A stretch of DNA of 64,000 nucleotides from Asparagopsis taxiformis (Eukaryota > Rhodophyta > Florideophyceae > Bonnemaisoniales > Bonnemaisoniaceae). The notes below the pieces were generated by a model, which saw only the letters and a list, made by a program, of their open reading frames with translations, had not been told where the DNA came from and searched no databases. Made by a program: the position numbers and the translations under genes. Position 1 is the first letter of the stretch. Each line of letters begins with the position of its first letter. Below are positions 10,857-53,590 of the stretch, one piece after another. The DNA lies in assembly GCA_030407315.1 (NCBI GenBank), contig JALQPE010000164.1, positions 1 to 64,000 of the forward strand, in the 5' to 3' direction.

Positions 10857-11150
10857 CGTCTGTGTTCTCGGAAATGGACGCGGACGTCCACAACCTCTAG
10901 TACACCTAGTATACTAGGCGGACGTCCATGTTCTCCAGTATTTTGGATGTCCGCCTAGAGCCGGACGTCCATGTGGTCCAGTACGTCTAGTATTACTAGG
11001 ACGACATTCATTTTTTCTAGTACCACGGATGTCCCCCTCGGGATGGACTTCCGCCATGTCTAGGTCCACCTAGGACGGGCGCCGGTTCAGAAATTCAAAA
11101 ATTTCGAGCCCAGAAATTTCTGCCGCCGTGCTCGACATGGATGTCCGCAT
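10857..11150. repeat. Outer element terminal repeat and subterminal motifs
   Basis: Begins CGTCTGTGTTCTCGG and matches 50762-51055 in reverse complement. Within 200 bp it holds several GGACGTCC or GGATGTCC octamers alternating with CTAGTAC and CTAGTAT motifs. It then has a short GCCCAGAAATTTCT segment that reappears inside the R repeats. The first 47 bp resemble the opposite element end at 29783 with a handful of mismatches, so this is the terminal inverted repeat. Confidence 0.8.
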
Positions 11151-11169
11151 CCATCACGGCGACCACTCT

Positions 11170-12330
11170 ATTTTCCCTGTCGGTCGACTCCAATTTCGTC
11201 TTTAATTTTTTCATCCTCTCGCTCACACCCCCTTCCTGTTGGTGCTCACCTCCCCCGTACTGTACCTCAAACACCCCAATACCACTCTAGCACGCATTTT
11301 CAGCTACCTATCCCCGTTCCACGGTGCACACCTCCATTCCATACCTACTTTTCTGCTCTACCGTACAGATTTCGTATAACCAGTCCTCATACTACCTCAG
11401 AATAGGGAAAAACACCCCCTATATCCTCGACCATGCTCTCCCCCATCACCTTTGCAACGTATTGTTCTTCAATACCCTCTCTCCTCTACCTTCAACCCCT
11501 CTCCTTCGCCCTCTCCACAAACTTCCCCTGCAGCTTACTCTTCGAAAACCTCTCACTCCCCATCCCGTACCCAACCTGCTCCACCCCTCCCTCCCTCAGC
11601 TGCTCCATGCCCCCCACGCCATCCACATCTTCGATACCGTATACAGCACCACCACCGGCCCACGCTCCCGCTCCCCCGCCGTCTCCCCAGAAACCCCCCC
11701 CGCTCTGAACCACATATGAACCCCCCACTTCGCACCCATCCTCTCACTCCCCTCCCTCCCCAAATACAATAACCCCTTCTTCTCCATCACATCCCCACTC
11801 ACCATAGCCAGAACAGACGCCACCCCCCTTCCCGCTCTTTTCCTCACTTTCCTAAAAAACCCTTCCTCTCGGCGCTTCAACCGCACCCTCCTACGGCCCC
11901 ACCTAAACACCTCCTCCACTCTCACTACCCCAACACCCCGCAGCGTCTCCCCAATCCCCATAATATGCTCGTCGGCACTCCTCTCCGAATCACATTCAAT
12001 CTAAACCCGCACTCCGTACATTTCCACCTCCCCCTGTACCATCCATAGATTCCATCCCCCCACAGAACACATCCTCATACCACAGAACAATTTTCTTCCT
12101 CTCATACCTCATCCTTAAAACCTCCATCTGCTCCATGTAAATTTCGATGTAAATATTTTCTCCACTATGCAATCTCAAACATGTACGAGCCTATGACTTT
12201 CCGCTTTGTCAACCCTGAATATTGGTACTCATGTATTCATAAAATAGGGCCACCCACATCCCTACCCCGTTCTGCAAGCTTTACAACCACCAGACGCATA
12301 CTCCACAACTATAAACAAACACTACTCGCT
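11170..12330. other. Strand-skewed (C-rich on plus) conserved tract
   Basis: A stretch of about 700 bp (11420-12080) that is strongly pyrimidine-rich on the plus strand and corresponds to the purine-rich 49600-50740 in the inner copy. Frames exist on both strands, but neither is preserved between the copies without indels. A short minus-strand segment encodes WKCTECGF (near 12030), also seen in the inner copy. I call no gene here. Confidence 0.5.
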
Positions 12331-12489
12331 ATTTCAGACGACGCGGTACGCAAGTAGCGTAGTCTCAACCTTCCGTGCAGCCTTCCCTGATGCGTACAAG
12401 TGCGAAACACGTCTAGACTACTACTACTACTACGATATAGTATATCAGAAGTGACTGCGGGAATTTTCGGCACAGGAGATGGTGGGCCA

Positions 12490-12590
12490 CCAAATTGATT
12501 TTTCGGAAATTTTAGAATTTCTGGGCTGGCCAGCAGTGCAATCGAGCTGGACATCCACCGGACGTCCATTTCAGGTTGGTCGTGAGAGAG
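12490..12590 (+). repeat. Truncated R repeat
   Basis: Only the distal half of R is present (AGAATTTCTGGGCTGGCCAG, then the two GGACATCC/GGACGTCC octamers). The hairpin half is missing. The equivalent in the inner copy is 49312-49390. Confidence 0.7.
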
Positions 12591-14641: not shown

Positions 14642-17600
14642 CTAGCCGTCGGAAAATTGTTCTTCGTCTTCGTCCTCATCATATTCAGGATCTCCCGGCA
14701 GAATAGGCGTTATCGGCAACCGTGGAGTTGATCTGCTCAAGATGAATTCTTCACCCGGTGTGAGGGTTCTCTTCTTGGGAGCTTCTGTCGTCTTCATCCG
14801 CATGATTCCGAGCTGCCCTGTCTTCGGCCTACGATCTTTCTTGACCGGGATGGGAACAACTGTCTTGTGGCGAACATTGACAGGTGCCGGTTGACTTTGC
14901 CTGGCAGACCGGCGCGGAGCATTGGCGATTACTTCTTCTTCGAATCCCAACCGCCTGATGAAACCAAACGAAACATTGTCGGGAATCGGATACGACGCAT
15001 TCCTGAAATACGTGTGATACCTCGTTGTCGTGTGTGACACAACTCTGTCGACATGCCCTGCCCCGGCATGTTGTACATGGCTGTGACCGATGAAGACTGA
15101 ACGTGGCGGAACGATTAACTTCTTCAGCTTCATCGTCTTGGCGTACATATCTAATTCCAGCGCTTTGGAAAAGACGTACTTGTGGGACCCTGGACACACC
15201 CAGATAGGGAATGGGTCATCTCCGTTGGCAATAACAAAGTAACCCGGAAGTTGATCTTTGCGGTCGCGAGGAGGAACAGGGAAATCATTGTGTGGGACCT
15301 GCCGAGGACACCCCTTTCCCGTTATCAAAAACCGTCCCCCAGATGCCGGCATGACAAGTTTTTCTCCCGGTAAACCGCACTCCTCCAGCCCTATCAGCCG
15401 GACAAGGATTCCCAACCACACATCCAGCAGGGCTCGCCGCGTCACAAACTTGAACCGGTCGATATGCGTCTCATCGTTCTCGGCATAGTCAACCAGGCAG
15501 TGGCGCGTAGACGTGAAGCGAGCCCTCCCCTCATTCCGGTTCTTCTCATCTGTTTCATCGTCCCCCGTATTGACAATGGGACTCCACAGCTGCCGGTTCC
15601 CAGGGTCCTTGTGCACCTCCTCCCCCTCCCATGTTCCCAAGAAGTACCGAAACAATTCCTGGTTAGGAATTTCTTCCATGAGACCCAAGTCAAATGGGAA
15701 CTTGTCCGACGCATCGAGGTAGCTTACATCCGCGAAATTGTGCATCACCGTATACCCTCGCTCGTTGATTTCCGTTCGGCAATTGTGGAAGTACGCCATA
15801 CCAGTGCCGGCCTCATACGAATCCTTCCAGCTTGTAGACATTCGCGCAACCTGAGCGAAGTCCAGCCTCGAGGGTAGAAACGTCGATGTAGGCTCACACA
15901 TCGCCTTGGCAGCCATCTTCCACGCTGCGAAAAACATCGGATAGATGGTCTCGATCTCGAAAACAAGATGACGAGCCCGATGTTGTTCCGGAATATGCAG
16001 CCCCTCAAACACAGGGTCCATCGCCACTTGCTTCAAATACCTCACCTCTCTGCCCTCCTCATCGATTTCCACACTCTCCAATAACAACCTGAGCTCAATC
16101 GGGGGCAGACAGCCAACCCTCACCGATGCGATGACGTCCGCGGGACGCTGCGCCAGATGATGCCCTTCGGCTCGGTCTTTGACTTCGAAATCGTCAGGAA
16201 GAGATGGCATACGGTCGTCGAACAGGAGGTCGTGTTCAGATGGAGAGTCACGAACGATGTAACCGTCTTCATCGACTTCCACTCCTTCCGGAACAGTGAA
16301 TGTAATTGTCACTTCGCGGACCCCCTTGCTTTCGACTTGGCCCTTGTCTGCACCCTGTTTGTCTTCCTCGTCCGAAGCGGTATGGACAGATTCTTGGTTG
16401 GAGGGAGTCGCACCAGCACGTTGGTTATCTTGGGGGACAATCTCAACGGCAGAATCGGGGGAACGGGCGGAGTCTTCGTCACCCTCATCACCGGAACAGT
16501 GGCTTGTTGTTGATCGGTGGGTTTATCAACAACGGCCTGCTCTTCTTCCCCGGCGGATTGTTGTACCACAACCGGCTCTTCTTCCTCGAGGCGTGTGCTC
16601 CCCGTCGAGCGAAGTCGCTGTGAACGGCGGCGGATGCCATGCGAAGCAGGCTCATGTTCGACATTCCGCTGCTTCTTGTGAGTGAGTCTCACATTGGCAG
16701 CGGAAGGGCGGCGTTTGCGTCGAGCCTTAGTCTTCTTCTTCAATGTCGGATTGAAAAACTCTTTCAAGTTCGTTTCCAAATCCTGTAAACGCGTGGTTCT
16801 CCGTCGCATTCGAACCTCACTGCTCCGGTCGTCCCCTCTATACATTGCAATGGCATTGGTGAGATGCCATTGCAACTCCTTCGGCTGCTTAACCGACCCA
16901 ATTGCCATCTCTGTGCTCAGAAATGACTTGCGCATAATACTCTTTGGGCGCCCATACGCAGCGTACAGAGAATTTGCTATTGCAGTCACGCGACGGACGT
17001 ATGTATAGAAGTCGTTCACGTCAAAGCGTCCATCCGGACGTCCACCATGAGCAGGGTTCAAGTACTCCGAAAGACCACGCAAGACGAAGACAAAGTTTTC
17101 TTCCAGCAACTCGCGCACTATCTTGTGGTCCAGGTGCGTTATCCCAATCTCGTTGCGGCGCTCGGAATTGTTCAGCTCACGCAACACTTCGTCGAGAACA
17201 GGATGCTTCAGCGTTGCTATAGCCAAACGCGTCCACCGCCGGGCCGTGTTCGTTGAATTCATCATCCCCATGAACTGCGCCTCGAACAATGTTCGGATGA
17301 CATCAGACTCACGCAAGTCGCCAGCGTTTTCCACGTTATTTGCAACAGCAATCGTACGGATGAACTGCTGGATGGACGACAAGATTCGAACCAGGGAGCG
17401 CTCCGTCAGTTGCGTCCCAGTCGTATGGTTCGACTCTGCACTCTTGTGGATGATCTCATGAGGCTGAAGATCACTGTTGTCCTTGCGGCGAAGGTAGTAC
17501 ACATCCAGAGGCTGAGTAACCCAGCGCAAGCGGTTTGCGTCCTGTGGCAGCTTGGTTCTGTGCATACGGGTGAGGCGCGTGAAGTCATCGGCAATGCTAT

Positions 17601-18597
17601 GCATAGCATTGAGACGATGCAGTCCGTCGATCACGGTCACGTTCGCATTGGCATGGAATTTGCCATTCTGGAACAGACGCGTGTCGGCGGGCAGATGCGT
17701 GTTCTGCGACCTCAGCACCGTCACAGTGATACGCGAAGAGCTCACATACCCCACAGCCAACATATTGTTGCGCAGGTCCTCCACGTGGTCTTCTTTCACA
17801 TCCCGAAGGGTCACGGCCGGTTCCACTAGCTGCCTCACCAACACAGTCGCTCCTTCTCCGACGTAATCCGACGTCACAAACTTGGGCACCGTAATTTGCG
17901 TCCCCTGCTGCTCACGAATGCTTTCCGCCACCTCCGGTTCGTCGTCCACCTCGGTTACGTCCTGCGTAGTAGCTTCGGTGACGTTGGAGCGAGCAGGGTG
18001 CTTCGTGCCTCCACTGGAGGCTCTAGCAGAGCGAGCAGGGCGCTTCGTGCCTCCCGAAACCGGGACGGAGCGTGCTGGATGCTTCGTACCCCCCGAACCA
18101 GTGATTTCGCCTGCCGGACCGGTACTGGGCATCCGTCCCGAGCTGGCCTGGTTCGTCGCTGCGTTGAAGTTTGACGCTGCAGCAGGGGTACGAATGTCGC
18201 TAGGGCCATCCTCCGCAGCGGGGCGCATCATCCGAGTATCCCAAGGGTAAAACGCCGCGGCGTATGCTCCACCCATCGTCTCCGGCGGTCCCTCGGCGCC
18301 ATCAAACATGTACGGGAACGGGAGGTCCTTGAACTTGTCCTTAGTCGCAATGTTGCGCACGACGATGTAGTCCGCCTCGTCGGTTTCCGGCAGCTTGTGG
18401 TTGTGCAGCGTGCGCGGAAGGCCAACATCGCCACCAGCAGTGCTCACCGAAGCCGTCCCAATATGCACAGCCGCACCGTCCACGTCCGCAAACAAATTGA
18501 CATCGACGCCGCGCTTGAGTCCGCGCGACTCCGCTGACGCGCTCACTTGATCGCCGCAAACCGTTGAAAACAAACTGCTGAAATGCGTATCCGCCAT
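14642..18597 (-). pseudogene. ParB-like / 2OG-Fe(II) dioxygenase fusion, outer copy
   Basis: Start chosen at the ATG in ACCATGGCGG (18597), conserved in the inner copy; upstream codons in the same frame have no ATG. The N-terminal 200 residues are low-complexity with GGTKHPARS repeats. A ParB/sulfiredoxin-type domain follows (VTVIDGLHRLNAM is the GxHR-like motif), then a basic region and an acidic linker. The C-terminal domain has the 2-oxoglutarate oxygenase pattern: VPHNDFP (His-x-Asp), VCPGSH, and HVQHAGAGH with the third iron ligand. A missing C near 16495 breaks the frame between the two domains. 3956 nt plus that base gives 1319 codons, consistent with one continuous ancestral gene. Substrate unknown; DNA, histone or tRNA oxidation are all possible. 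Confidence 0.8.
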
Positions 18598-18950
18598 GGT
18601 TGTTGAGTTGGAAAGGAAAAGAGATGGTTGACGTTGACGTATTGGAGTGATGTGGATGGTAGGTTTCACGTTGCGTTGAAGAACGGTCGTGAACGCCAAT
18701 CGCTGGAAATAATAACACAATAGAACCGAAATTTTGTTAGGTACAGACCTATCGTGACCGCTGGAATGCAAGAGAGGCAATCGAGATGTGAGTGTCCGTT
18801 CGGAACGGGCCCGAGTCGGGCTCTCGAAACCTGACGAGGTGGCGTGAAGCAGGCAGTGTCCTTGATGTGTAATGTGTTAAAATTACAGCTGTCAAGCTAG
18901 GCGGCTTTTGGGGCGGCTGCGAGCACCCCTTTATCCGGGGAACACCCTGA

Positions 18951-22445: not shown

Positions 22446-25400
22446 ATGACGAATAAGCGCAGGCGCAACAGCAATCCGATCGTTGACGACGCAACCGTGC
22501 CAATTCTGCGCGAACCCGCTAGCCCTTGGGAGGATTCTAGTGACATGGGTACACGTCGAAACGTAGGTCGCGCCGCCCGCGAAACTACTCTCGCTGGCAA
22601 AGACTTCCTCCGCCTCTTGCTGGATTTGTTCGCCCACTCAAGTTTCGCAGACTTGACGGACAAGCCGGGAGGTTTCACATACGCGGACCTTGGCGCTTGG
22701 GTTGCGCAGGGCACGGAAGAACAATTTCTGGCGCTGCAAGGTCGACTCAGCATGGCCTTCAGCGGTCGTTCGAAGAATGCTGGAGTCGAGGCGGATGTTG
22801 CCGAAATCGTCATGGCAGAGATGAACGTTGAGCGAGCCAAGCAGATTGTTCGTCTGGCATTACCGATTGCCGAGTTTTCAAGACAGGATGAGCGTATCGG
22901 GCAATGGGTTGAGCACTGCATCCTTTCTGGGATCGTGCCGCAGACCTTCCTTATTGGATGTAACATGCTTCCTTCGCCACTACAGGCGCCGCAGCGCGGG
23001 GAACCAAGCGCCTTCGTTCTTGCTCCACCGGAAACGTTCGAGGTATTGATGTATTTCCAAGCGTTGTCTATCATCCGAAATCACAACAAGAACCTGCCGC
23101 GTCGCCGAATAGGCGACGCGGCCGAGGAGGGGAACGAAGCCGCACGCGTCCCAGCCCATCGGAAAAGCACTAATCGAGCTTGTTACGTGGTTCAAGTTTT
23201 ATACCATGCTTGGACCGATGTGGCCTTCGCCGCAAAGTTTTCCAGCTTCGAAGAGTTGATGGCGCCGTACATCATTTTCGACAGCAGTGAGCATTGGTTT
23301 GACGTGCTCGATGAAGGTCTATTCGCACCGATGGAGCAGAAGCTAGATCTCTACCACGACAAAGCTCCCCTATCTCATCCTGATGGATATGGTGGAAAAG
23401 TAGAGACAAGAACCAGTGCGCAGCACAGTGCATTTAGGGACCTTGTGAGGAAGTTCTTCGACCGGTTGCAGTTTCTTATCGTCAACCCGGACCTGTACAC
23501 CTGGCCGGAGTCCGACCGCTGGGGGGCGCTGGAAATATACTTGTCAAGCGGAAATCCGGACAAGCTGCCAGCGTACTTTGACACCCTCGCCGAAGACGTT
23601 ATGGCTGTCCTCCGCCCGGCACCACAAGCCGCGGACGCAGAAAAGGTCCCCAAGCCGGTTGATGACACTCCCACTCGTCGCAACACAGGAGGGAGAGGTT
23701 TGGTTCCGTCGACAAGACACACAACCAGCTTGAACTTGGGCCTGGGAGGACCAGTCTTACTGCCCAAGGGCCGTCTCCCCCGTCACCGTCACCCCATGCG
23801 ACAGAAGAGCAGGAAAGTGAAGGGCAGGCTCTCGCAAAGGACTTTCTTTCGGAAATGAGTCAGTATTGCCGGGTGTACGACGTCCCTTTCGAAGATTTGG
23901 TCAGTGCCGACGAGAGCCGAGAACACGTGCCCATCACGGGCAACGTTCAGCTCATTCTGACTGATCCGCCCTACAATGTTCGTCGTAAGAGGAACGATTC
24001 CAACTCTTCGTACGACAGGCTAACTGCAGAAGATATGCAGGCTAGCATCGAAGTGTTTGACGAGCTGTTGCGCCCCGGTGGCCACGGCATCGTGTTCTGC
24101 TCCGTTTTGCAGTTCTACGAATGGTTCCATTACTTGGAAACGTACAAAGGACCGCAGTCAGAAGGCCCAACCGATGCTGCTGCCAGTGATGACGGGTCGG
24201 ATGAAGAAGAGGTTACGTCCATGAATTCGGACTCCGAAGCATCGCAGCACAGTGGCGAAGAAAGTGCGGATGAGGAGGAGGAGGAGGACGAGGAGGAGGA
24301 GGATGTCGTTCGGAATTCAGTTTTCTTCGTTGACGAGGTACCTCTGTTGTTTGTCCGACTACCTGGGCACCTCTATCAAATGCCGGGGCGGAAGAGGTAC
24401 CAACGCATGAACATGGCAGAGGTCGCTATCCACTTCTGGAAGCGAGGTGTTCCGTTCAAGACTGGAAGCGAGATGGTGGCCTATAGGAACCACGGATACA
24501 TGGACGGCACGTACCCGGCGTGGTGCAACGTCACCATCAATATGCCCGCCATCGATTCGAATGAGATGGTGTGGCGAACAAGGAGCACAACCGGTGCTAC
24601 GGTCAGAGTTCGTGCAGAGCAGAAGAGCGTCGCTCTCATGATGGAGTTGATCAGCCAGCATTCACAGCCTGGTGATATTGTTGTCGATCCATTCTCTGGC
24701 ACTTTCGCAACGGGAAAAGCAGCTATGAGCTTGCCTGAGCACCGTGTTTTCGTCGGCAGTGACATGGACAAATTGTGTGTGGCACGATCGCTTCCAAAGC
24801 TGTGTGCAGTCATGTCACGTGTAATTCTTTCAAACAACACTGACATGAGGGTCACGACAGAAGCGAAACAGAGTGCTGAGAAGTTCTTGGCGTCCCCCTC
24901 TGTCACGATGCGTACACAGAGGGAACGGAGGATCATCGAACCCCCACCTGGCCTTCCCCTGTACCAGAGGTTCCCGAAATATATTCGGCAGTACCTCTGG
25001 CAGCTGTGCCCAGAGTCGATTGCGTCGCACGAGCACATGGAAAAACCGGTACATTATTGGCCACCTTCCCTGCGCCGCTGGTTGCAAACTGAAAACCCTC
25101 GCGTGATGCGGGCACACGATTGTGTTGCGAAAAAATGAGCGTTCGACCATCGCTGATTAAGCATCCAAATGCAGGAAGAGGGCTCTTCGCTGAACAGACA
25201 TTTAATGTTGGCGACGAAGTATGTGCATACTACGGAACTGTTGTGTACTCTGATATGAGCAAGGAGTCGATGAGGTTCGCGTACGGAGAGGGTCACATGG
25301 CGATAACGAAGGAAACATTCTTGATGTATGCCATCAAGCTGTATGCAACAGCGGAGGACGACGAAAACATCGAGCATCCAATTTGGATTGTTCCGGCTCC

Positions 25401-25647
25401 GTTCTGTTCGGCGCAGTTCATCAACGACCCGCGGTATTTGCGAGGTGAGGACACTCCGGCGGAAGACACCAGGCGGATGGCCAACGTCGAGTTTGTCGAG
25501 AACTACAGCAGCGGTTCGACGGGGAAGAAGCTCAAGGCGAAGGACCTAGAAAATCCGAAGATCATTGTAGTACGTGCAATCCGCGATATCTGTCCGGGGC
25601 AGGAGCTCTACGTTCATTATGGGACAGCGTTTAGAGCATGGAATTAG
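22446..25647 (+). pseudogene. DNA methyltransferase-SET fusion, outer copy
   Basis: ATG at 22446. The first 430 residues are mostly helical and unrecognised. From 23855 comes a beta-class DNA amino-methyltransferase: LILTDPPYNV (catalytic DPPY) precedes the AdoMet motif VVDPFSGTFATGKAA, with a glutamate-rich insert between them. From 25134 comes a SET domain: GRGLFAEQ, AQFINDPRY, NVEFVEN and GQELYVHYG. There is no pre-SET cysteine cluster. This copy is split into three frames. A G is missing near 23732 and a T near 25137, so each downstream part begins at an ATGA overlap that mimics an operon. Adding two bases gives 3204 nt, or 1067 residues. Predicted activities: adenine-N6 or cytosine-N4 DNA methylation, and lysine methylation. 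Confidence 0.85.
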
Positions 25648-26304: not shown

Positions 26305-28588
26305 ATGCCGCCGCGTATTGCGAAGAAAGCTCCAAAGCCTCCGGGCCTCCAGAAAAACCGGTCAGCAGCTGCTGTATCGAGTGCCCGACAATCCCGTGCG
26401 AAGAAGCGGTGTGGGCCTACCGGCAGCATTGAACCGCGGTCCGGTAGTCGCAAGACGGACCGGCGCAGAACTGGGGATCCGCAGCGAGAAAGTGAGGAAG
26501 GAGGAACGGCGCGGAGAGAGATGGGGCTTGACCGAGGCAAGCGTGCTCGCAGGGACAGTGAACATCATGATGATGACATGATAGTGGCTCAAAACATGTT
26601 GGAATTGCGGCAGAGTGCTATGGCAAAGGTAGTTCCTCCCGGGTTGGCAGATGCGGAGGTGCTGCAGACGGAGTCCCAGCCGGGGGTTCGCGAGACACTG
26701 GAGGCTGTGACCCCCACTGCGCCAACTATGCAGAGTACATCAGCCCCAGCAGGTAATGCAGTCAGGGACCCGAGGATAGCGGCAAGGGATGTTGTTTCTG
26801 AGCAACGTTCACAGGATGCCAACTATCATCGGCGGTCAGGTGGTACTGAGGGGAGAGAGCAGCCGGAGTGCGGGCCTCGTCACAACAGACTGTCATTGGT
26901 GCCAAATATGCGCGTAACGCCCCCGCGACGTCAGGCTATTGCCGATGGAGGACATCATAATCCCGATAGCGTGGGAGATGGGGGGACGGTGAGGGCAGAG
27001 AGGTTGCATCCGCCGGAATCCATCGATTTAATGGCGAGTCGCATCAATGCGCAGAAGAAGAAGATCGCGGAGCTGGAAAAAAAGTGTTTAGCCAGGACAT
27101 AGCAAACAAGGCGCTCACCACGGAGATAGTTGCGTTGGAGGCTAAGGTGAAGACTCTGCAGGCGGAAAATGCCAGCCTTACTGCAATTGCGAGAACAGGT
27201 AGAATCAGTGATCACGGTGGCGGTAAGTCGAAAATACAGAAAGCCATTCCTGTGAAATACCTTGGAGTTCTTAGGGCGGTTGAGGAAAACCTGACAAAGT
27301 GGTGCAAGAACGAGACTATGGAGCTGGACCCTATAGCGGAACAAACGCAGAGACGTTGGACTGGACGTACCATCGAGGTAGAGCCGGTAGAAGGGACACT
27401 TTGGAGCGAAAACGGTGTAGGATATATTGCTACCCCTCCGGGCTATATCATCAAGAATCTGCAGTGGTATACACCTTCGTACAGAGACGAGAGTGATCTG
27501 CTGAATGACTTGGTGCGACACGTACTGCGTCAAAGTCCGTGGTGTGATGTGTTTTCCGATGAGGAGCAGCGTGTGTGCTGTCAAGAGGCTGTGGCGGGGA
27601 GCAAGGAATTGAAAGTGAAGGTGACGCAGAAACTGTCCGACGTGATGAGTGCACGGAAGCGTAATGCGAGGGACAGATTGTTCGGTTCGCTGGGGTACAC
27701 GAAATTAATGTCTAGATGCACGATGCTGACGACGCGAGCTGAGATGGACGAGCGAGAGGAACAAAAGCGCGAAGCGTCTGAGAAGCTTTTGAAACGGGAA
27801 AGTAACGGTGATTTGGATATGGGGAGGTGGCGAACGGCACCGTTCTCAGAGCTGCGATACAGCAAAGGCTTGGTTCCTGACAGCTTCGAAATGGAAGTGA
27901 ATGGTGATGCATGGTTTAACAACCGAGTAGCTGTGAATGTGCTGGACATCTTCAGGGGTTATTCGATACGACCAGAACAAGTAATGGACATAGAGACGAG
28001 CATACTAACGCTGGCGCGCCTGGATGCTTGGCTAGTGACTACTGTGGAGTGTTTGGATGAACCGAAGGGGAAAGGAGGTGCACGGCAGAAGGAGTTTACA
28101 AGGCGGTACAGTCAATATGTGGGGGTAGCTTTTCAGCAATTAGTTGGTATGGTGGTGTACTGCATGTCTTGTCTCCAAGGCTCGCAAGCAAGGGAAGAAA
28201 CGGACGTTGTCGAGAGCGAACAGCGGACTAGTGCACAGTCACGGCATGTGTTTGCAAGCCGTACTGTGACGAGAGAGGCTGTTGAAGTGTGGCAAAGCGG
28301 AGAGGGGTCTGGAATTGTTCATGTCGTTGATGATGTAAACCGCTGCTCATCACTTGTTCTAGTGTCCGAGGATTGGATTCAATCGCATATTACGTCAAAC
28401 CTCGGTGCTGTAATGGATTGTGTGATTGCGCAAGGACTAATTGGCGCAGAACTTTTCGTCGTTGACCCATATGCTGGACACCTGAGTGCAAACCTGAATG
28501 TCGAAATCAATGCCCCACAGTATGGGGGCATGGAGCGGCGCCATGCAGCCACTGCTGATAACGTTTTGGCGTAATGGAGGATGGTTGA
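26305..28588 (+). pseudogene. Coiled-coil protein, outer copy (frameshifted)
   Basis: Start ATG at 26305 in TTCATTATGCCGCCGCG. The frame is broken at 27081, where a run of seven A replaces the eight A of the inner copy, and again near 28562, where one G is missing from the final codons. Adding both bases gives 2286 nt, the same as the intact inner copy at 35503-37788, where the domains are described. The gene is read toward the transposase remnant (tail to tail). Confidence 0.75.
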
Positions 28589-28665: not shown

Positions 28666-29782
28666 TTATTCTTCTTCATTATCATCTGTGAACTGGTAAT
28701 CAGTGTTGGTGTAGAAGCGGTTGAGATAGAAACGGTGGTCCGACCAGTGCATTTGTTTCGTAAATGGCTTGACTGGAAAGTTACTTCGTACGATGTGCAC
28801 GGTGCCAGATATAGTAGATGCAGGAATGAGGTCAAACCAAGGACCACCTGCACTGTGGGATGCAGTGTCATTGCTGTCAACGGATCCGTTGTCCGGGTCC
28901 CATGTGGACCACTTTAAACAAATGCACCCAAGTGATTTTTCCACAGCGGTTTTTGGGGCAAAGCAGGTCATATACTGAACGAAAGCGAGTTCTACAGGTT
29001 GAAACAGGTTTGGAGACTGCAGGCGTACCAGTGCCAGGACGCGCCCTACCCATATGGTTCTGTAGTCATCGGCAGTTCCGGAGATGACGACAAAGGAGTA
29101 CTGCGATCTCTTTGCGGGGCCGAATGATGAAGTTGCAAAGACGCGCTGCTGCTTGTGCCTCGACACGTTTGTGGGGCGAAGCATGCCACTGTGCGGGTCA
29201 AAGTCGTCGGCATCTGGGACGTACCCTCCCATGACGTAGGCGGACTTTACCGCGGTGACGGAAATGTCCATGTCATGTATTGGAGGGCCTTCTGCCGTGG
29301 CGCGCAGTCTAGCGAGGGTGAGGAACGCTTGTGCAGCTGTGTCACCGAGTTGCTGGAATAGCGTTATGGTGCCAGACGGGAACGAGGAGTTGTGCAGAGG
29401 CAAAAGAGTGGCAGGATCGGGCTGTCCGTCGATATCTGCAATGAGGAGGGTTGCATCGGGCAGCAGGGAGGCAAAGTCGTGCAGTGCAACGGTGAATCCG
29501 TCGCGAACGAGTACTGCACCGTCTGTGGGCGATATCATGCGTGCGTTTCCCAATGTGTTCGATGGGGTATGACCAGTTGGAGTGGCCAAGGAGAATTCCA
29601 TGTGGCGAATAGTCTCTTCCATGGCTGTGGAGCGCCTTCGAGAGGTTTTCCTATAACTCTGTTTGAACAGAAGATGCGAGTGTTCGTAGGGGCCTGCATC
29701 AATGTGTTCCAGGGCGCCATATCTCTGCAAGTCACCGGGAAGATGGTCTAGAAGATGGAACTTGAAAGTTTTGAGACCTGTG
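28666..29782 (-). pseudogene. Outer transposase, C-terminal part
   Basis: Encodes the last about 370 residues of the transposase, nearly identical to the intact inner protein, starting at LKTFKFHLLDHLPGDLQRYG. It therefore contains the final catalytic Glu region (GPYEHSHLLFK). The N-terminal remainder of the same gene is at 51056-53001. The break at 29782/51056 is exactly where the inner element is inserted. Confidence 0.9.
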
Positions 29783-38448: not shown

Positions 38449-41400
38449 CTAATTCCATGCTCTAAACGCTGTCCCATAATGAACGTAGAGCTCCTGCCCC
38501 GGACGGATATCGCGGATTGCACGTACTACAATGATCTTCGGATTTTCTAGGTCCTTCGCCTTGAGCTTCTTCCCCGTCGAACCGCTGCTGTAGTTCTCGA
38601 CAAACTCGACGTTGGCCATCCGCCTGGTGTCTTCCGCCGGAGTGTCCTCACCTCGCAAATACCGCGGGTCGTTGATGAACTGCGCCGAACAGAACGGAGC
38701 CGGAACAATCCAAATTGGATGCTCGATGTTTTCGTCGTCCTCCGCTGTTGCATACAGCTTGATGGCATACATCAAGAATGTTTCCTTCGTTATCGCCATG
38801 TGACCCTCTCCGTACGCGAACCTCATCGACTCCTTGCTCATATCAGAGTACACAACAGTTCCGTAGTATGCACATACTTCGTCGCCAACATTAAATGTCT
38901 GTTCAGCGAAGAGCCCTCTTCCTGCATTTGGATGCTTAATCAGCGATGGTCGAACGCTCAATTTTTTCGCAACACAATCGTGTGCCCGCATCACGCGAGG
39001 GTTTTCAGTTTGCAACCAGCGGCGCAGGGAAGGTGGCCAATAATGTACCGGTTTTTCCATGTGCTCGTGCGACGCAATCGACTCTGGGCACAGCTGCCAG
39101 AGGTACTGCCGAATATATTTCGGGAACCTCTGGTACAGGGGAAGGCCAGGTGGGGGTTCGATGATCCTGCGTTCCCTCTGCGTACGCATCGTGACAGAGG
39201 GGGACGCCAAGAACTTCTCAGCACTCTGTTTCGCTTCTGTCGTGACCCTCATGTCAGTGTTGTTTGAAAGAATTACACGTGACATGACTGCACACAGCTT
39301 TGGAAGCGATCGTGCCACACACAATTTGTCCATGTCACTGCCGACGAAAACACGGTGCTCAGGCAAGCTCATAGCTGCTTTTCCCGTTGCGAAAGTGCCA
39401 GAGAATGGATCGACAACAATATCACCAGGCTGTGAATGCTGGCTGATCAACTCCATCATGAGAGCGACGCTCTTCTGCTCTGCACGAACTCTGACCGTAG
39501 CACCGGTTGTGCTCCTTGTTCGCCACACCATCTCATTCGAATCGATGGCGGGCATATTGATGGTGACGTTGCACCACGCCGGGTACGTGCCGTCCATGTA
39601 TCCGTGGTTCCTATAGGCCACCATCTCGCTTCCAGTCTTGAACGGAACACCTCGCTTCCAGAAGTGGATAGCGACCTCTGCCATGTTCATGCGTTGGTAC
39701 CTCTTCCGCCCCGGCATTTGATAGAGGTGCCCAGGTAGTCGGACAAACAACAGAGGTACCTCGTCAACGAAGAAAACTGAATTCCGAACGACGTCCCTCC
39801 TCCTCGTCCTCCTCCTCCTCCTCATCCGCACTTTCTTCGCCACTGTGCTGCGATGCTTCGGAGTCCGAATTCATGGACGTAACCTCTTCTTCATCCGACC
39901 CGTCATCACTGGCAGCAGCATCGGTTGGGCCTTCTGACTGCGGTCCTTTGTACGTTTCCAAGTAATGGAACCATTCGTAGAACTGCAAAACGGAGCAGAA
40001 CACGATGCCGTGGCCACCGGGGCGCAACAGCTCGTCAAACACTTCGATGCTAGCCTGCATATCTTCTGCAGTTAGCCTGTCGTACGAAGAGTTGGAATCG
40101 TTCCTCTTACGACGAACATTGTAGGGCGGATCTGTCAGAATGAGCTGAACGTTGCCCGTGATGGGCACGTGTTCTCGGCTCTCGTCGGCACTGACCAAAT
40201 CTTCGAAAGGGACGTCGTACACCCGGCAATACTGACTCATTTTCGAAAGAAAGTCCTTTGCGAGAGCCTGCCCTTCACTTTCCTGCTCTTCTGTCGCATG
40301 GGGTGACGGTGACGGGGGAGACGGCCCTTGGGCAGTAAGACTGGTCCTCCCAGGTCCAAGTTGAAGCCTGGTTGTGTGTCTTGTCGACGGAACCAAACCT
40401 CTCCCTCCTGTGTTGCGACGAGTGGGAGTGTCATCAACCGGCTTGGGGACCTTTTCTGCGTCCGCGGCTTGTGGTGCCGGGCGGAGGACAGCCATAACGT
40501 CTTCGTCGAGGGTGTCAAAGTACGCTGGCAGCTTGTCCGGATTTCCGCTTGACAAGTATATTTCCAGCGCCCCCCAGCGGTCGGACTCCGGCCAGGTGTA
40601 CAGGTCCGGGTTGACGATAAGAAACTGCAACCGGTCGAAGAACTTCCTCACAAGGTCCCTAAATGCACTGTGCTGCGCACTGGTTCTTGTCTCTACTTTT
40701 CCACCATATCCATCAGGATGAGATAGGGGAGCTTTGTCGTGGTAGAGATCTAGCTTCTGCTCCATCGGTGCGAATAGACCTTCATCGAGCACGTCAAACC
40801 AATGCTCACTGCTGTCGAAAATGATGTACGGCGCCATCAACTCTTCGAAGCTGGAAAACTTTGCGGCGAAGGCCACATCGGTCCAAGCATGGTATAAAAC
40901 TTGAACCACGTAACAAGCTCGATTAGTGCTTTTCCGATGGGCTGGGACGCGTGCGGCTTCGTTCCCCTCTTCGGCCGCGTCGCCTATTCGGCGACGCGGC
41001 AGGTTCTTGTTGTGATTTCGGATGATAGACAACGCTTGGAAATACATCAATACCTCGAACGTTTCCGGTGGAGCAAGAACGAAGGCGCTTGGTTCCCCGC
41101 GCTGCGGCGCCTGTAGTGGCGAAGGAAGCATGTTACATCCAATAAGGAAGGTCTGCGGCACGATCCCAGAAAGGATGCAGTGCTCAACCCATTGCCCGAT
41201 ACGCTCATCCTGTCTTGAAAACTCGGCAATCGGTAATGCCAGACGAACAATCTGCTTGGCTCGCTCAACGTTCATCTCTGCCATGACGATTTCGGCAACA
41301 TCCGCCTCGACTCCAGCATTCTTCGAACGACCGCTGAAGGCCATGCTGAGTCGACCTTGCAGCGCCAGAAATTGTTCTTCCGTGCCCTGCGCAACCCAAG

Positions 41401-41650
41401 CGCCAAGGTCCGCGTATGTGAAACCTCCCGGCTTGTCCGTCAAGTCTGCGAAACTTGAGTGGGCGAACAAATCCAGCAAGAGGCGGAGGAAGTCTTTGCC
41501 AGCGAGAGTAGTTTCGCGGGCGGCGCGACCTACGTTTCGACGTGTACCCATGTCACTAGAATCCTCCCAAGGGCTAGCGGGTTCGCGCAGAATTGGCACG
41601 GTTGCGTCGTCAACGATCGGATTGCTGTTGCGCCTGCGCTTATTCGTCAT
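38449..41650 (-). pseudogene. DNA methyltransferase-SET fusion, inner copy
   Basis: ATG at 41650. Here the unknown N-terminal region and the front half of the methylase (with DPPY) are one continuous 628-codon frame. The back half of the methylase (VVDPFSGTFATGKAA) and the SET domain are one 464-codon frame. The only break is a 2-base deletion in the glutamate-codon repeat near 39795. Thus both joints that look like gene boundaries in the outer copy are continuous here, showing that the gene is a single three-part fusion of 3204 nt. The DPPY, AdoMet and SET motifs are all retained. A GAG/GAC microsatellite is a likely slippage site, so reading-frame switching or sequencing error should be considered. 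Confidence 0.85.
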
Positions 41651-44337: not shown

Positions 44338-44681
44338 TTCCCCGGATAAAGGGGTGCTCGCAGCCGCCCCAAAAGCCGCCTAGCTTGACAGCTGTAATTT
44401 TAACACATTACACATCAAGGACACTGCCTGCTTCACGCCACCTCGTCAGGTTTCGAGAGCCCGACTCGGGCCCGTTCCGAACGGACACTCACATCTCGAT
44501 TGCCTGTCTTGCATTCCAGCGGTCACGATAGGTGTGTACCTAACAAAATTTCGGTTGTATTGTGTTATTATTTCCAGCGATTGGCGTTCACGACCATTCT
44601 TCAAGCAACGTGAAACCTACCATCCACATCACTCCAATACGTCAACGTCAACCATCTCTTTTACTTTCCAACTCAACAATC

Positions 44682-47600
44682 ATGGCGGATACGCATTTCA
44701 GCAGTTTGTTTTCAACGGTTTGCGGCGATCAAGTGAGCGCGTCAGCGGAGTCGCGCGGACTCAAGCGCGGCGTCGATGTCAATTTGTTTGCGGACGTGGA
44801 CGGTGCGGCTGTGCATATTGGGACGGCTTCGGTGAGCACTGCTGGTGGCGATGTTGGCCTTCCGCGCACGCTGCACAACCACCAGCTTCCGGAAACCGAC
44901 GAGGCGGACTATATCGTCGTGCGCAACATTGCGACTAAGGACAAGTTCAAGGACCTCCCGTTCCCGTACATGTTTGATGGCGCCGAGGGACCGCCGGAGA
45001 CGATGGGTGGAGCATACGCCGCGGCGTTTTACCCTTGGGATACTCGGATGATGCGCCCCGCTGCGGAGGATGGCCCTAGCGACATTCGTACCCCTGCTGC
45101 AGCGTCAAACTTCAACGCAGCGACGAACCAGGCCAGCTCGGGACGGATGCCCAGTACCGGTCCAGCAGGCGAAATCACTGGTTCGGGGGGTACGAAGCAT
45201 CCAGCACGCTCCATTCCGGTTTCGGGAGGCACGAAGCGCCCTGCTCGCTCTGCAAGACCCTCCAGTGGAGGCACGAAGCATCCAGCACGCTCCGTCCCGG
45301 TTCGGGAGGCACGAAGCACCCTGCTCGCTCCAACGTCACCGAAGCTACTACGCAGGACGTAACCGAAGTGGACGACGAACCGGAGGTGGCGGAAAGCATT
45401 CGTGAGCAGCAGGGGACGCAAATTACGGTGCCCAAGTTTGTGACGTCGGATTACGTCGGAGAAGGAGCGACTGTGCTGGTGAGGCAGCTAGTGGAACCGG
45501 CCGTGACCCTTCGGGATGTGAAAGAAGACCACGTGGAGGACCTGCGCAACAATATGTTGGCTGTGGGGTATGTGAGCTCTTCGCGTATCACTGTGACGGT
45601 GCTGAGGTCGCAGAACACGCATCTGCCCGCCGACACGCGTCTGTTCCAGAATGGCAAATTCCATGCCAATGCGAACGTGACCGTGATCGACGGACTGCAT
45701 CGTCTCAATGCTATGCATAGCATTGCCGATGACTTCACTCGCCTCACCCGTATGCACAGAACCAAGCTGCCACAGGACGCAAACCGCTTGCGCTGGGTTA
45801 CTCAGCCTCTGGATGTGTACTACCTTCGCCGCAAGGACAACAGTGATCTTCAGCCTCATGAGATCATCCACATGAGTGCAGAGTCGAACCATACGACTGG
45901 GACGCAACTGACGGAGCGCTCCCTGGTTCGAATCTTGTCGTCCATCCAGCAGTTCATCCGTACGATTGCTGTTGCAAATAACGTGGAAAACGCTGGCGAC
46001 TTGCGTGAGTCTGATGTCATCCGAACATTGTTCGAGGCGCAGTTCATGGGGATGATGAATTCAACGAACACGGCCCGGCGGTGGACGCGTTTGGCTATAG
46101 CAACGCTGAAGCATCCTGTTCTCGACGAAGTGTTGCGTGAGCTGAACAATTCCGAGCGCCGCAACGAGATTGGGATAACGCACCTGGACCACAAGATAGT
46201 GCGCGAGTTGCTGGAAGAAAACTTTGTCTTCGTCTTGCGTGGTCTTTCGGAGTACTTGAACCCTGCTCATGGTGGACGTCCGGATGGACGCTTTGACGTG
46301 AACGACTTCTATACATACGTCCGTCGCGTGACTGCAATAGCAAATTCTCTGTACGCTGCGTATGGGCGCCCAAAGAGTATTATGCGCAAGTCATTTCTGA
46401 GCACAGAGATGGCAATTGGGTCGGTTAAGCAGCCGAAGGAGTTGCAATGGCATCTCACCAATGCCATTGCAATGTATAGAGGGGACGACCGGAGCAGTGA
46501 GGTTCGAATGCGACGGAGAACCACGCGTTTACAGGATTTGGAAACGAACTTGAAAGAGTTTTTCAATCCGACATTGAAGAAGAAGACTAAGGCTCGACGC
46601 AAACGCCGCCCTTCTGCTGCCAATGTGAGACTCACTCACAAGAAGCAGCGGAATGTCGAACATGAGCCTGCTTCGCATGGCATCCGCCGCCGTTCACAGC
46701 GACTTCGCTCGACGGGGAGCACACGCCTCGAGGAAGAAGAGCCGGTTGTGGTACAACAATCCGCCGGGGAAGAAGAGCAGGCCGTTGTTGATAAACCCAC
46801 CGATCAACAACAAGCCACTGCTTCCGGTGATGAGGTTGACGAAGACTCCGCCCGTTCCCCCGATTCTGCCGTTGAGATTGTCCCCCAAGATAACCAACGT
46901 GCTGGTGCGACTCCCTCCAACCAAGAATCTGTCCATAACGTTTCGGACGAGGAAGAAAACAACAGTGCAGATGAGGGCCATGTCAAAAGCAAGGGGGTCC
47001 GCGAAGTGACAATTACACTCACTGTTCCGGAAGGAGTCGAAGTCGATGAAGACGGTTACATCGTTCGTGACTCTCCTTCTGAACACGACCTCCTGTTCGA
47101 CGACCGGATGCCATCTCTTCCCGACGATTTCGAAGTCAAAGACCGAGCCGAAGGGCATCATCTGGCGCAGCGTCCCGCGGACGTCATCGCATCGGTGAGG
47201 GTTGGCTGTCTGCCCCCGATTGAGCTCAGGTTGTTATTGGAGAGTGTGGAAATCGATGAGGAGGGCAGAGAGGTGAGGTATTTGAAGCAAGTGGCGATGG
47301 ACCCTGTGTTTGAGGGGCTGCATATTCCGGAACAACATCGGGCTCGTCATCTTGTTTTCGAGATCGACACCATCTATCCGATGTTTTTCGCAGCGTGGAA
47401 GATGGCTGCCAAGGCGATGTGTGAGCCTACATCGACGTTTCTACCCTCGAGGCTGGACTTCGCCCAGGTTGCGCGAATGTCTACAAGCTGGAAGGATTCG
47501 TATGAGGCCGGCACTGGTATGGCGTACTTCCACAATTGCCGAACGGAAATCAACGAGCGAGGGTATACGGTGATGCACAATTTCGCGGATGTAAGCTACC

Positions 47601-48650
47601 TCGATGCGTCGGACAAGTTCCCATTTGACTTGGGTCTCATGGAAGAAATTCCTATCCAGGAATTGTTTCGGTACTTCTTGGGAACATGGGAGGGGGAGGA
47701 GGTGCTCAAGGACCCTGGGAACCGGCAGCTGTGGAGTCCCATTGTCAATACAGGGGACGATGAAACCAGATGAGAAGAACCGGAATGAGGGGAGGGCTCG
47801 CTTCACGTCTACGCGCCACTGCCTGGTTGACTATGCCGAGAACGATGAGACGCATATCGACCGGTTCAAGTTTGTGACGCGGCGAGCCCTGCTGGATGTG
47901 TGGTTGGGAATCCTTGTCCGGCTGATAGGGCTGGAGGAGTGCGGTTTACCGGGAGAAAAACTTGTCATGCCGGCATCTGGGGGACGGTTTTTGATAACGG
48001 GAAAGGGGTGTCCTCGGCAGGTCCCACACAATGATTTCCCTGTTCCTCCTCGCGACCGCAAAGATCAACTTCCGGGTTACTTTGTTATTGCCAACGGAGA
48101 TGACCCATTCCCTATCTGGGTGTGTCCAGGGTCCCACAAGTACGTCTTTTCCAAAGCGCTGGAATTAGATATGTACGCCAAGACGATGAAGCTGAAGAAG
48201 GTAATCGTTCCGCCACGTTCAGTCTTCATCGGTCACGGCCATGTACAACATGCCGGGGCAGGGCATGTCGACAGAGTTGTGTCACACACGACAACGAGGT
48301 ATCACACGTATTTCAGGAATGCGTCGTATCCGATTCCCGACAATGTTTCGTTTGGTTTCATCAGGCGGTTGGGATTCGAAGAAGAAGTAATCGCCAATGC
48401 TCCGCGCCGATCTGCCAGGCAAAGTCAACCGGCACCTGTCAATGTTCGCCACAAGACAGTTGTTCCCATCCCGGTCAAGAAAGATCGTAGGCCGAAGACA
48501 GGGCAGCTCGGAATGATGCGGATGAAGACGGCAGAACGCAAGCCAGAACGCAAGCCTATATCCTACACAATTACTGATGTCCCGTTCATGCCTATTCTGC
48601 CGGGAGATCCTGATTATGATGAGGAAGAAGAACAATTTTCCGACGGCTAG
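44682..48650 (+). pseudogene. ParB-like / 2OG-Fe(II) dioxygenase fusion, inner copy
   Basis: ATG at 44682. The frame breaks near 45301 (one T lost in an extra GGTKHPARS-type repeat) and near 47767 (one extra C in GAAACCAGATG). Between them a single 801-codon frame runs from the ParB-like domain (VIDGLHRLNAM) through the acidic linker into the dioxygenase. This proves that both domains belong to one gene; the outer copy is broken exactly in that linker. The iron ligands HND and HVQHAG and the VCPGSH block lie in the last part (47767-48650). The net length of 3969 nt is a multiple of three. The last 40 codons differ more from the outer copy than the rest. Confidence 0.8.
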
Positions 48651-50760: not shown

Positions 50761-50761
50761 T

Positions 50762-51055
50762 GCGGACATCCATGTCGAGCACGGCGGCAGAAATTTCTGG
50801 GCTCGAAATTTTTGAATTTCTGAACCGGCGCCCGTCCTAGGTGGACATAGACATGGCGGAAGTCCTTCCCGAGGGGGACATCCGTGGTACTAGAAACAAT
50901 GGATGTCGCCCTACTAATACTAGACGTACTAGACCGCATGGACGTCCGGTTCTAGGCGGACATCCAAAAATACTGGAGAACATGGACGTCCGCCTAGTAA
51001 TACTAGGTGTACTAGAGGTTGTGGACGTCCGCGTCCATTTCCGAGAACACAGACG
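50762..51055. repeat. Inner right terminal repeat and subterminal motifs
   Basis: Reverse complement of 10857-11150: terminal CGTCTGTGTTCTCGG, octamers GGACGTCC/GGATGTCC alternating with CTAGTAC. Ends abruptly at 51055 next to transposase coding sequence of the outer copy. Confidence 0.85.
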
Positions 51056-53001
51056 CGCCATCCCGGCTGGTCCTACAGTGTGTAATGGGCCGAAGGTGGA
51101 GAGCATTGATTGTTTGAAATAGGAAATGGAGTTCTGGAGGCTTTCTAGTTCGGCGGCAGTCCAGTGCTTGATGCGACCGCGTTTCATGACCCATGCGACG
51201 AGGTCAGAGTATTGCGTGCAGATGGAAGTGAGGGGGGCTGTCTCTACTTCGTCACAGCATGTGTCAATGAATGCTGCGATGAAAGGGAACACCATGTCGA
51301 CATGGTGATAGTCTTTGGCTGCGAGCATGCCGCGTATGCCGTCCTCCGTGAAGAGGCCGTTCAAATTGGTGCCCTTCTCACCCTTGGAGAAGTCGACATG
51401 AAGACCGGTGATGTAGTAGTCGCGTTCGATAGCGGACAAAATGCTGTTTGAGCCGGCGAGGATGGATTTTTTCAGCTTCTTGAAGGTGTGAGGTGTCCCG
51501 GAATGGGAGGCAGTGGTGGTGGTGAGGTCTGGGGAGCTGAGGCGGTGGACAATGCACTGTTTGATGAGCTTTGAGATGCCGAGGTGGAGATTGTGCAGAG
51601 GCTCGAAGGAGAAAATGTTGTAGGGGTCTAGGGGACTGTTGGTGGGTAAAAGAGCGGTCGATTCGAGGACAGAGTGTTGTTCGAGGAGGGAGAGAGCTTC
51701 GAGCGGAGCAGTTGTATGCTCCTGAGCGCTCTCTTGGCGTGCAGAGCGTGTATCATCGAGGGAGCGGGGCTGGTGTGGCGCGGTGGATTCAAGTTGAGTG
51801 GCGGGGATGTAGCAGCGGTGGCAGGGATGTGTGGTGGTAGTGCTGTTGCGAGTGCATGACAGCTCTTTGGCCTCTGGAAAGTCGCAGCAATAATTGGCTA
51901 GGATGGGAAAGCATTGGCGGGCAGTTGCAGTGGAGTCTGTGCAGGGGAACCCGGAAGAGAACGCGGTGGATAGGGACGAAAACACTTTTTCGAGTGCTTT
52001 ATGAAGAATATCAATTTTGCGAGCGCGACTAGCAGAACTAGAGGTTGTCGGCATTTCATCACCGAACAAGGCGTTGGACGAAGGGTTAACAATGTACGGA
52101 AGATACCCGACGATGGTGAGGCCGGTACGGATGCAGTGGCGACGGAGGGGGGCGGAGAAGTTGAGCAGTGTGACGTGTATGGGGTATGCGACGATTGCGG
52201 AGCTCTTGAGGCTTGTGCTGCTCTTGTCGGAGTACACTTGGAGGAGGCCGGCAAAGGAGGAAGGTGTGGGATCAGTTTCCTCTGCCCATACGACCTGTGG
52301 ATCTTCCGAGAGCTGCACGCGCTGTCTAGTAACCTGGTGCAGCGTTTTCGCGAATTCTGTGTGTAGGGGATGAGAAAATATTGCGGTGCCGTCTGGGGCG
52401 GTCTGTGGGGAGGGGTGGAAGAGAGTATTTTGGTCGTTAGCCAGTGCTAACTGCCTGCGGAGCATGTCGACTGGGTCGCGGAGGTACAGCTGTGCCGAGT
52501 ACTTACCAGTTTTGTCTGGAATGATGTGGCTCTTGTAACCTTCGGTGCGGAAATGTGTTTCGACCATGGAAGCGGTAACGTGGCGACATTCTTCTACGGT
52601 GCGAACGGCGCTGCTGAACTTTTCTAGGGAGAATGCGGGGTCTTGTAGGATGGTGATGACTTCGCTCACGCGGCCAGCGCCGGCCTTGTACTCGAGGGTT
52701 GTGAGACTGGCGGCGAGGGATTGCACGAGGAGGTCTGCGCGGGAGGGGTTGAGGTTGGTGGCAGTGAAGCGTCACAGGGTGAGTCGCTGGAGGAAGCACG
52801 ACCAGATTCTGGGTCTGGGGAGCTGGGTTGCGGGGAATCATGGTCGCCGTTTCGAGCAGGCTCATGGGTGACGGCAGGGACACGAGCGTTGTTGAAATGT
52901 TGGGGAGAGGGGTTGAAACGGTAGCGACACGTTCGCTCATGCAGCGCGAGCGCATAAGCATCTACGCAGTAGTAGAAGCATCCTTCATACTTGCATTCCA
53001 T
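51056..53001 (-). pseudogene. Outer transposase, N-terminal part
   Basis: Starts at ATG 53001 with the same zinc finger (CKYEGC...HERTC) and continues to MLSTFGPLHTVG, where the inner element begins. A run of four C near 52746 replaces five C in the intact gene and shifts the frame early, so the outer transposase was dead independently of the insertion. The catalytic SDKSSTS and CCDFPEAKE motifs remain visible in the downstream frame (52726-51072). Confidence 0.9.
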
Positions 53002-53590
53002 GTCGAGTTTTGACGCAAAAGGGAGGATTGCGAGCTGAACAGGGGAGACTGTGCCGTCCAGATGCGACCAATTTTATTTTGTGGTGCTTCGAGACTTGGA
53101 ATGTAACGTGTTCGTTCGTAGTTTTGTGGGTAGTAGTTTTGTGCTCACTCCAGCTGACATCCCAACGGTGGAATTTAACCGAGAGTTCAATCATTTCCAA
53201 CTGTTACATCACATTGCGTGCTGGCAACGTGTGCATGGAAGGACGAACGACTGCCCTGGGACATGAATTTTCAATTAATTCATTTGTAATAATAAACTTT
53301 TTTATTTCCAAACTTCGTGGAATCTGAATGTGCTTTACAGCGGATATGCCACGGATCATGTAAGGAAAGCAAATGGATTCTCATATATATGATTATATGT
53401 TTATATTCGTTGTTCTCGATCCGGATCTCATTGTTCGGGATTCAGAGACCATGGTTTGGGCCATACTCAATCTCACTGCCGGCGATGATTTCGAGTATGC
53501 ACAGCAAGACTTAAGCGGACGCTGAAAGCTGTCCGGTCGACGCCGCAGGCACCACTCCGCCCTCATCACCGACTGAGATTCTTTGACCGC
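53002..53590 (-). promoter_or_regulatory. Outer transposase 5' region, truncated
   Basis: Matches 31797-32386 in reverse, up to TTTGACCG at 53589. The rest of the outer element's left end is displaced by the chromovirus. Confidence 0.7.

Follow-up and report, generated by a model that had tools for sequence, protein, structure and literature searches.

The stretch of DNA analysed here, referred to as the window, consists of 64,000 nucleotides of contig C164 of the Asparagopsis taxiformis assembly (141.5 Mb in 3156 contigs). It contains a complete DNA transposon of 21,273 bp, at 29783–51055 on the plus strand and with its transposase side at the left. This inner copy (copy C) lies inside an interrupted copy of the same element in the opposite orientation, the outer copy (copy B). 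The genes of the inner copy are, in order, a transposase (plus strand), a gene for a protein of 761 residues (minus), a gene for a protein that joins a DNA methylase to a SET domain (minus), and a long gene whose end is oxygenase-like (plus). The reading frames confirm the observation in the first-pass annotation of this DNA that both copies carry these four genes in the same order. That annotation called the two copies unrelated, but they are close sisters, with coding blocks 98–100% alike.

The ends of the element are 33-bp inverted repeats, CGTCTGTG...CACAGACG, left and right differing at two of the 33 positions. Exact ends were found at both coordinates of the inner copy, and they fit the end patterns found throughout the genome. 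The left repeat, CGTCTGTGTTTTCGGAAGTGGACGCGGACGTCC, is at 29783–29815 (plus strand), and the sequence outside it varies between copies; the right repeat, at 51023–51055 (minus strand), is identical to it at 31/33 positions. Tandem arrays (a 43-bp unit present 5.2 times and a 24-bp unit present 4.6 times) lie just inside the left end, at 29908–30364 (plus strand), in a region rich in CTAGTA. Of the 19 occurrences of this hexamer in the element, 18 fall in the terminal 600 bp on either side, 12 at the left and 6 at the right. The CTAGTA-rich end regions are a candidate transposase-binding region.

The transposase frame, at 32387–35425 on the plus strand, is intact and encodes 1012 residues. The profile search that the annotation had proposed for this product gives a match to the Plavaka family PF18759, with an E-value of 3.8e-24 and 86 bits against a cut-off of 26.3, covering positions 35–318 of the 325 in the profile. 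The motifs SDK, DFPE, CHRC and LHNLHLG can be read in the frame, and some of them may hold the catalytic D, D and E and the C(2)C and H motifs of the family. The earlier description, of a DDE transposon some 21 kb long that carries a DNA methylase and SET, is borne out. The proposed affinity to the KDZ group (Kyakuja, Dileera, Zisupton) is not: the Pfam match is to Plavaka, and the target duplication is 2 bp (see below) and not the 7–8 bp of KDZ elements. The available part of PMC12730594 gives these KDZ duplication lengths, and reports no sequence similarity of Plavaka to KDZ. CACTA/EnSpm elements, with 5'-CAC termini and a 3-bp duplication, were rejected as well: the termini here begin CGT, and a 3-bp match at the flanks was found in only one of 23 end pairs. 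A Starship would have a tyrosine-recombinase captain, and no such domain was found in the nine frames scanned with Pfam, where a Plavaka transposase is present instead.

The annotation also proposed a genome search for further copies, which found the same two ends, 2-bp duplications and one empty site. Right ends (at most one mismatch) number 1333. Allowing two mismatches, the pattern of the left end matches at 2586 places, a count that includes right ends because the two ends differ at two positions. The reversed control gave no match for either pattern, and the counts are far beyond chance. Patterns for the four genes, searched over the whole genome with up to three mismatches, gave similar counts: 983 for the transposase, 994 for the 761-aa gene, 980 for the methylase and 899 for the oxygenase-like gene. 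Partial copies truncated at the end of a contig are among these matches, and double counting of haplotypes is possible. The copy number is several hundred to about a thousand. Comparing about 980 gene copies with 1333 right ends suggests that most ends belong to gene-bearing copies. If each methylase match stands for a whole element, 980 copies of 20 kb would make up about 14% of the assembly, which is an upper figure. The copies are nearly identical, which points to recent spread.

The genes lie at fixed distances from the ends. This was examined with exact matches among those listed, on contigs up to C198. A left end lies 3–6 kb before the transposase in 45/74 cases (wrong-orientation control, 1), the transposase precedes the 761-aa gene by 2736–2840 bases in 42/47 (control, 0), and a right end follows the oxygenase-like gene by 1.5–6 kb in 56/72 (control, 2). 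Cargo genes lying mostly outside the ends, which the annotation named as evidence against a single unit, were therefore not what was found.

Among the matches listed there are 25 pairs of ends 1–30 kb apart, 14 of them 10.0–12.0 kb, six 20.0–22.5 kb and five of other sizes. All six of the 20.0–22.5 kb pairs hold a transposase, and none of the 14 short pairs has a listed exact gene match. The other copies of 20.0–21.4 kb share the ends of the inner copy, and so does the gene-less 10–12 kb class. Complete pairs favour short elements, because the contigs are short. One gene-less copy of 11.1 kb (C14:6193–17321, L084–L085) has the ends common to the element, with a similarity to the inner copy of about 85% on the left side and 91% on the right, and an interior consisting of an inverted repeat; it is apparently a non-autonomous partner.

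Flanks could be compared in 23 of the 25 pairs, the other two having a right end at base 1 of a contig and a left end at base 17 of a contig. A 2-bp duplication is present in 15/23, which by chance would have a probability of about 3e-13; controls with a shifted left flank gave 0 to 4. No pair has a 4-bp duplication (0/23). Within the 20.0–21.4 kb class the duplication was found in three of the five copies compared, the exceptions being the copy on C88 and the inner copy of the window. An empty site confirms the boundary. One short copy lies inside the gag gene of a Ty3 element, and an uninterrupted copy of that gag is present in the window at 55291. When the flanks of the short copy are joined with exactly 2 bp removed, they fit the uninterrupted gag at 58/58 bases, while dropping 0, 1 or 3 bp gives 40/60, 39/59 and 38/57. 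The boundary of the element lies where the flanks diverge, and the empty site fixes it; the copies were chosen by this end pattern. For a second pair, on C12 (302749–318378), no empty site was found, the best match being 37/58.

On the basis of these observations, the element is very probably an autonomous cut-and-paste transposon of 20–21 kb, of Plavaka type, belonging to a red alga. This confidence applies to the identity of the element and not to the role of its cargo. A number of observations count against it. The termini, CGTCTG..CAGACG (CG...CG), fit neither of the fungal Plavaka subgroups. No listed exact end was found at the expected place for 29/74 transposase and 16/72 oxygenase-like matches, where the ends may be mismatched, cut off by the end of a contig or truly absent. 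The 2-bp duplication is lacking in 8/23 pairs, including the inner copy. A number of the cargo frames carry breaks in the two copies of the window. Finally, the 5' half of the copy B transposase has 2 silent and 6 replacement changes, and so no sign of constraint; its 3' half has 2 of each, and the inner copy differs from a copy on contig C52 by 3 of each in this gene.

The inner copy and the C52 copy (20,044 bp) are colinear. Identity is 99.2% for 12.2 kb, 96.1% for a further 5.2 kb and 94.6% for the final 1.9 kb, and repeat blocks have been lost and gained between the two. The transposase and oxygenase-like gene of the C52 copy also carry breaks. Frame breaks may represent decay of the copies or errors of assembly. 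The assembly of A. taxiformis lineage 6 in the available part of PMC12115072 comes from PacBio reads with short-read polishing. Errors are therefore a possible source of single-base breaks within repeats.

A unit of this size carrying a bacterial-like methylase might also be an endogenous virus or virophage, and the available part of PMC11244446 describes giant repeats flanked by Plavaka beside viral insertions in Amoebidium. The nine frames scanned with Pfam contain no capsid, polymerase or packaging domain, a transposase and a 2-bp duplication are present, and six transposase peptide patterns, which reach only close relatives, had no match in viral contigs. We consider a viral origin very improbable.

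The most distinctive cargo is the methylase-SET protein. In the inner copy its gene is at 38449–41650 (minus strand), with the frame broken near a GGA-type repeat at 39796–39827, and the C52 copy has an intact frame of 1067 residues (L086:67–3270). In this intact frame, Pfam matches N6_N4_Mtase at residues 501–776 (E 3e-15) and SET (PF00856, E 9.8e-7, 29.6 bits against a cut-off of 22.4). DPPY precedes the S-adenosylmethionine-binding motif, and the best structural match is CcrM. The half of the protein that would act on DNA is thus an amino-methylase of the bacterial beta class, and DPPY makes N6-adenine the likeliest mark, as an activity predicted from sequence. Foldseek, run on a model of the whole protein, matches SUV4-20 SET structures at E 1.3e-5, with a target template-modelling score of only 0.38. 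The SET half would methylate a histone.

The methylase-SET gene family occurs in other genomes. In viral collections all four loci match the methylase region only, as do 15 of the 16 loci in prokaryote collections. One full-length relative (L094:125–3151; 25% identity over residues 52–1067) is on a 3.5-kb contig in a bin of the cyanobacterium Moorena, and this is probably an algal contig binned with the cyanobacterium. The catalytic residues are retained in most distant methylase homologues.

The 761-aa protein (35503–37788, minus strand) contains a coiled coil and has weak matches only, around residues 240–310. The long gene (44562–48650, plus strand, with two frame breaks) encodes an N-terminal part with the motif VIDGLHRL, and a C-terminal HxD...H oxygenase-like domain. 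VIDGLHRL resembles ParB by eye. With the cut-offs applied, neither Pfam nor PHROGs gave a ParB match, and the PDB sequences gave none that was meaningful, so the earlier label of ParB-like has no profile support. A 2-oxoglutarate oxygenase had also been proposed. The HxD...H motif is invariant in four homologues, of which one is 98% identical. The three frames of the gene give no Pfam match at an E-value of 10, TET/JBP included. A single-sequence structure model of the protein reached a predicted local distance difference test (pLDDT) score of 33. The joined ParB-motif/oxygenase protein yielded no homologues, which is a weak null, since the oxygenase part alone gave the four. The domain is an oxygenase-like domain of unplaced family.

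We propose that the transposase would recognise the inverted repeats and, probably, the regions rich in CTAGTA next to them, excise the element and reinsert it with a 2-bp stagger; it would also move the gene-less class in trans. Less certainly, the methylase-SET protein may act on the element's own DNA and chromatin. It and its partners would most likely set the modification state of both. Combined with the oxygenase-like protein, such marking would keep the copies out of, or under the control of, host silencing. Some such self-marking role of the cargo, as judged from sequence, is an idea about which we are almost evenly divided, leaning slightly against. A more specific version is possible but held with greater reserve: one protein would methylate adenine in the DNA of the element and add a methyl mark to nearby histones, the oxygenase-like partner would remove or tune a competing mark, and about 1000 giant copies would thereby persist in a small seaweed genome.

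An alternative is that the three cargo genes (methylase-SET, 761-aa and oxygenase-like) are passive: acquired in a single capture, they would be copied with the element and have no effect on transposition or silencing. The changes among copies point in both directions. In the methylase-SET gene, copy B differs from C52 by 8 silent and 6 replacement changes, a bias to silent change with a probability of 0.005 without constraint by a simple site count (the inner copy differs by 2 of each, and the numbers are small). The 761-aa gene has 1 silent and 3 replacement changes in one comparison and 1 and 9 in the other, with no constraint, which speaks for passengers and against the main reading. Frames are broken in several copies. 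Two distant methylase-SET homologues, P0004 (DPPQ) and P0005 (DGPY), have altered catalytic motifs (alignment A1), a further point against the main reading; the altered motifs suggest that methylase activity has been lost in some lineages. The gene-less class transposes too, making up the 14 of 25 listed complete pairs, but complete pairs favour short elements and this class could be moved in trans. Against passengers, moreover, the four genes are nearly equal in number, and the catalytic residues are kept in most distant methylase homologues and in the four oxygenase-like ones. On balance we regard passive cargo as rather unlikely.

A third view is that the cargo serves the host, as a restriction-like or chromatin system that has been domesticated, or benefits the host, and happens to be carried within the element. 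The methylase-SET family is present in other genomes, and three other red algae have 4–6 N6_N4_Mtase genes (available part of PMC12115072). Some 1000 near-identical copies tied to transposon ends indicate transposition and not duplication of a host gene, however, and a host function is improbable.

The outer copy runs on the minus strand from 10857 to the end of the window at 64000 and on to 68395 of the contig, interrupted by the inner copy and by a Ty3 element. Its right end, a match to the right-end pattern, is at 10857–10889 (plus strand). Then follow the ParB-motif/oxygenase-like gene at 14642–18780 (minus; two frames, 16309–18780 and 14642–16312), the methylase-SET gene at 22446–25644 (plus; three frames) and the 761-aa gene at 26305–28574 (plus; one frame break). 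Alignment of the copies places the 3' half of the transposase at 28666–29782 and the 5' half, with its leader, at 51078–53080, both on the minus strand. The earlier reading of a transposase split by the inner copy, with matching terminal repeats, holds, except that the gene resumes at 51078 and not at 51056. The intervening 22 bp, at 51056–51077 (plus; CGCCATCCCGGCTGGTCCTACA), are the tip of a third element, X. The outer boundary given as 53590 is likewise displaced. It is where a Ty3/gypsy long terminal repeat (LTR) retrotransposon begins (53591–64000 in the window, continuing to 67062 in L087; plus strand), which was inserted in the outer copy and is not part of it, and the left end of the outer copy is at 68395, outside the window. 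The 660-bp LTRs of the Ty3 element are 100% identical, so its insertion is very recent; its target duplication is ACCGC.

The annotation had the inner copy inserted directly into its sister. The junction has no duplication (flanks TG/CG) and includes the piece of X, so that direct insertion is only a possible account. The outer copy also has no duplication (flanks ...GTA/TTG...). It adjoins, at 10856, the left part of a third, gene-less copy of the 11-kb class (copy A, 7908–10856, plus strand; 97.4% identity over 2953 columns with the C14 copy). The flank of the outer copy on the other side has no relation to copy A, so here too the insertion is not a clean one. These features speak for an assembly chimera or a product of ectopic recombination and not nested insertion. 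On the other side, a second contig, C1622 (L071), repeats the same junction of inner end, tip and transposase, and in L080 element X occupies the position in the transposase that it has in the window. Both findings suggest that the order of events is real. We put a chimera or recombination at close to an even chance, if a shade below it. A possible order for nested insertion is that X entered the outer transposase, the inner copy then entered the tip of X, and the rest of X was later lost. A 27-base pattern for the tip has 59 matches in the genome, most diverging beyond 22 bases. X belongs to a repeat family (L080, L069, L072–L079) with the end TGTAGGACCAGCCGGGATGGCG. This end would be of the TGT..ACA type, and appears to resemble PlavakaA as described in the available part of PMC12730594.

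At the left of the window, positions 1–6965 contain Copia-like frames on the minus strand, recognised by eye: reverse transcriptase (1758–3092), integrase (3646–4566) and a gag-like frame (5190–6395). This region has a direct repeat of 1.69 kb (1–1689 and 5280–6965) that is 99.6% identical.

The host had been taken for a fungus; it is a red alga, as indicated by phycobilisome genes and EF1A. Eleven of the 13 phycobilisome matches are on contig C469, one gene occurring twice, 177,170 bases apart. The host EF1A lacks the opisthokont insertion, and the best eEF1A chains in the PDB, which are of the animal and yeast kind (this may only reflect the content of the PDB), are 12 residues longer over the match. 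On these two grounds a fungal host was rejected, as was a holozoan one such as Amoebidium. Ribosomal protein uL3 is not decisive: its top three PDB chains, from plants, lead the next by only about 3–6 bits.

The element shares its transposase family, and the idea of epigenetic cargo, with known systems, and differs from them in cargo, termini and host. Fungal Plavaka elements have the PF18759 transposase in common with it, and a target duplication of 2 bp (PlavakaA) or 2–3 bp (PlavakaB) according to the available part of PMC12730594, in line with the 2 bp seen here. Their termini are TGT..ACA or CATCA..TGATG, in contrast to CGTCTG..CAGACG, and the present element is in a red alga, is 20 kb long and has no TET/JBP by Pfam. 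It is therefore Plavaka-type by its transposase, but neither PlavakaA nor PlavakaB. Plavaka outside the fungi is not new, since EnSpm-Plavaka elements are described in the green alga Auxenochlorella (available part of PMC12636532).

The same part of PMC12730594 describes fungal transposons carrying TET/JBP (Kyakuja, Dileera, Zisupton, Plavaka and others), and, in Phytophthora, HarbingerS and MuDR elements with SET genes. The former also carry a DNA-modification enzyme, thought to counter silencing, but theirs is an oxidase of methylated bases and not a methylase-SET fusion with an oxygenase-like domain. The latter resemble the element in having a transposon-borne SET histone methyltransferase, but with a different transposase, and that text does not mention a DNA methylase fusion. 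In the Plavaka giant repeats of Amoebidium many of the cargo genes are tyrosine recombinases, and complete ends are not described in the available part of PMC11244446. A parallel to the protein is N4CMT of bdelloid rotifers (PMC8885841), in which a bacterial beta-class N6_N4 methylase is likewise fused to a chromatin domain. N4CMT, however, has SPPY and a chromodomain and is a host gene (an allelic pair), whereas the present protein has DPPY and SET and is carried by about 1000 transposon copies. A full-text literature search, judged by titles, the openings of abstracts and selected passages and with subscription papers and Repbase outside its scope, found no transposon with a fusion of a DNA amino-methylase and SET, and no name for this element.

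The finding recasts a published gene duplication. According to the available part of PMC12115072, A. taxiformis has 66 N6_N4_Mtase genes compared with 6, 5 and 4 in three other red algae, treated there as gene duplication and as potentially the most striking among the duplicated genes; 33.48% of the genome is given as DNA transposons. The element probably explains these 66 genes, as transposon cargo in about 1000 copies. In a figure legend of the same source, the contig that holds the bromoform gene cluster is shown with DNA-methyltransferase genes. The element may therefore be a neighbour of a commercially interesting trait. Complete, with fixed bounds and apparently recent, it is suited to asking whether transposons can determine the state of their own DNA and chromatin. 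If the two-layer mark is real, this would be the first transposon-encoded DNA amino-methylase/histone methylase known to us, and a natural N6-methyladenine system in red algae. The element offers a clean test case for functional adenine methylation in a non-model eukaryote, and the PacBio reads of the species could already give the answer.

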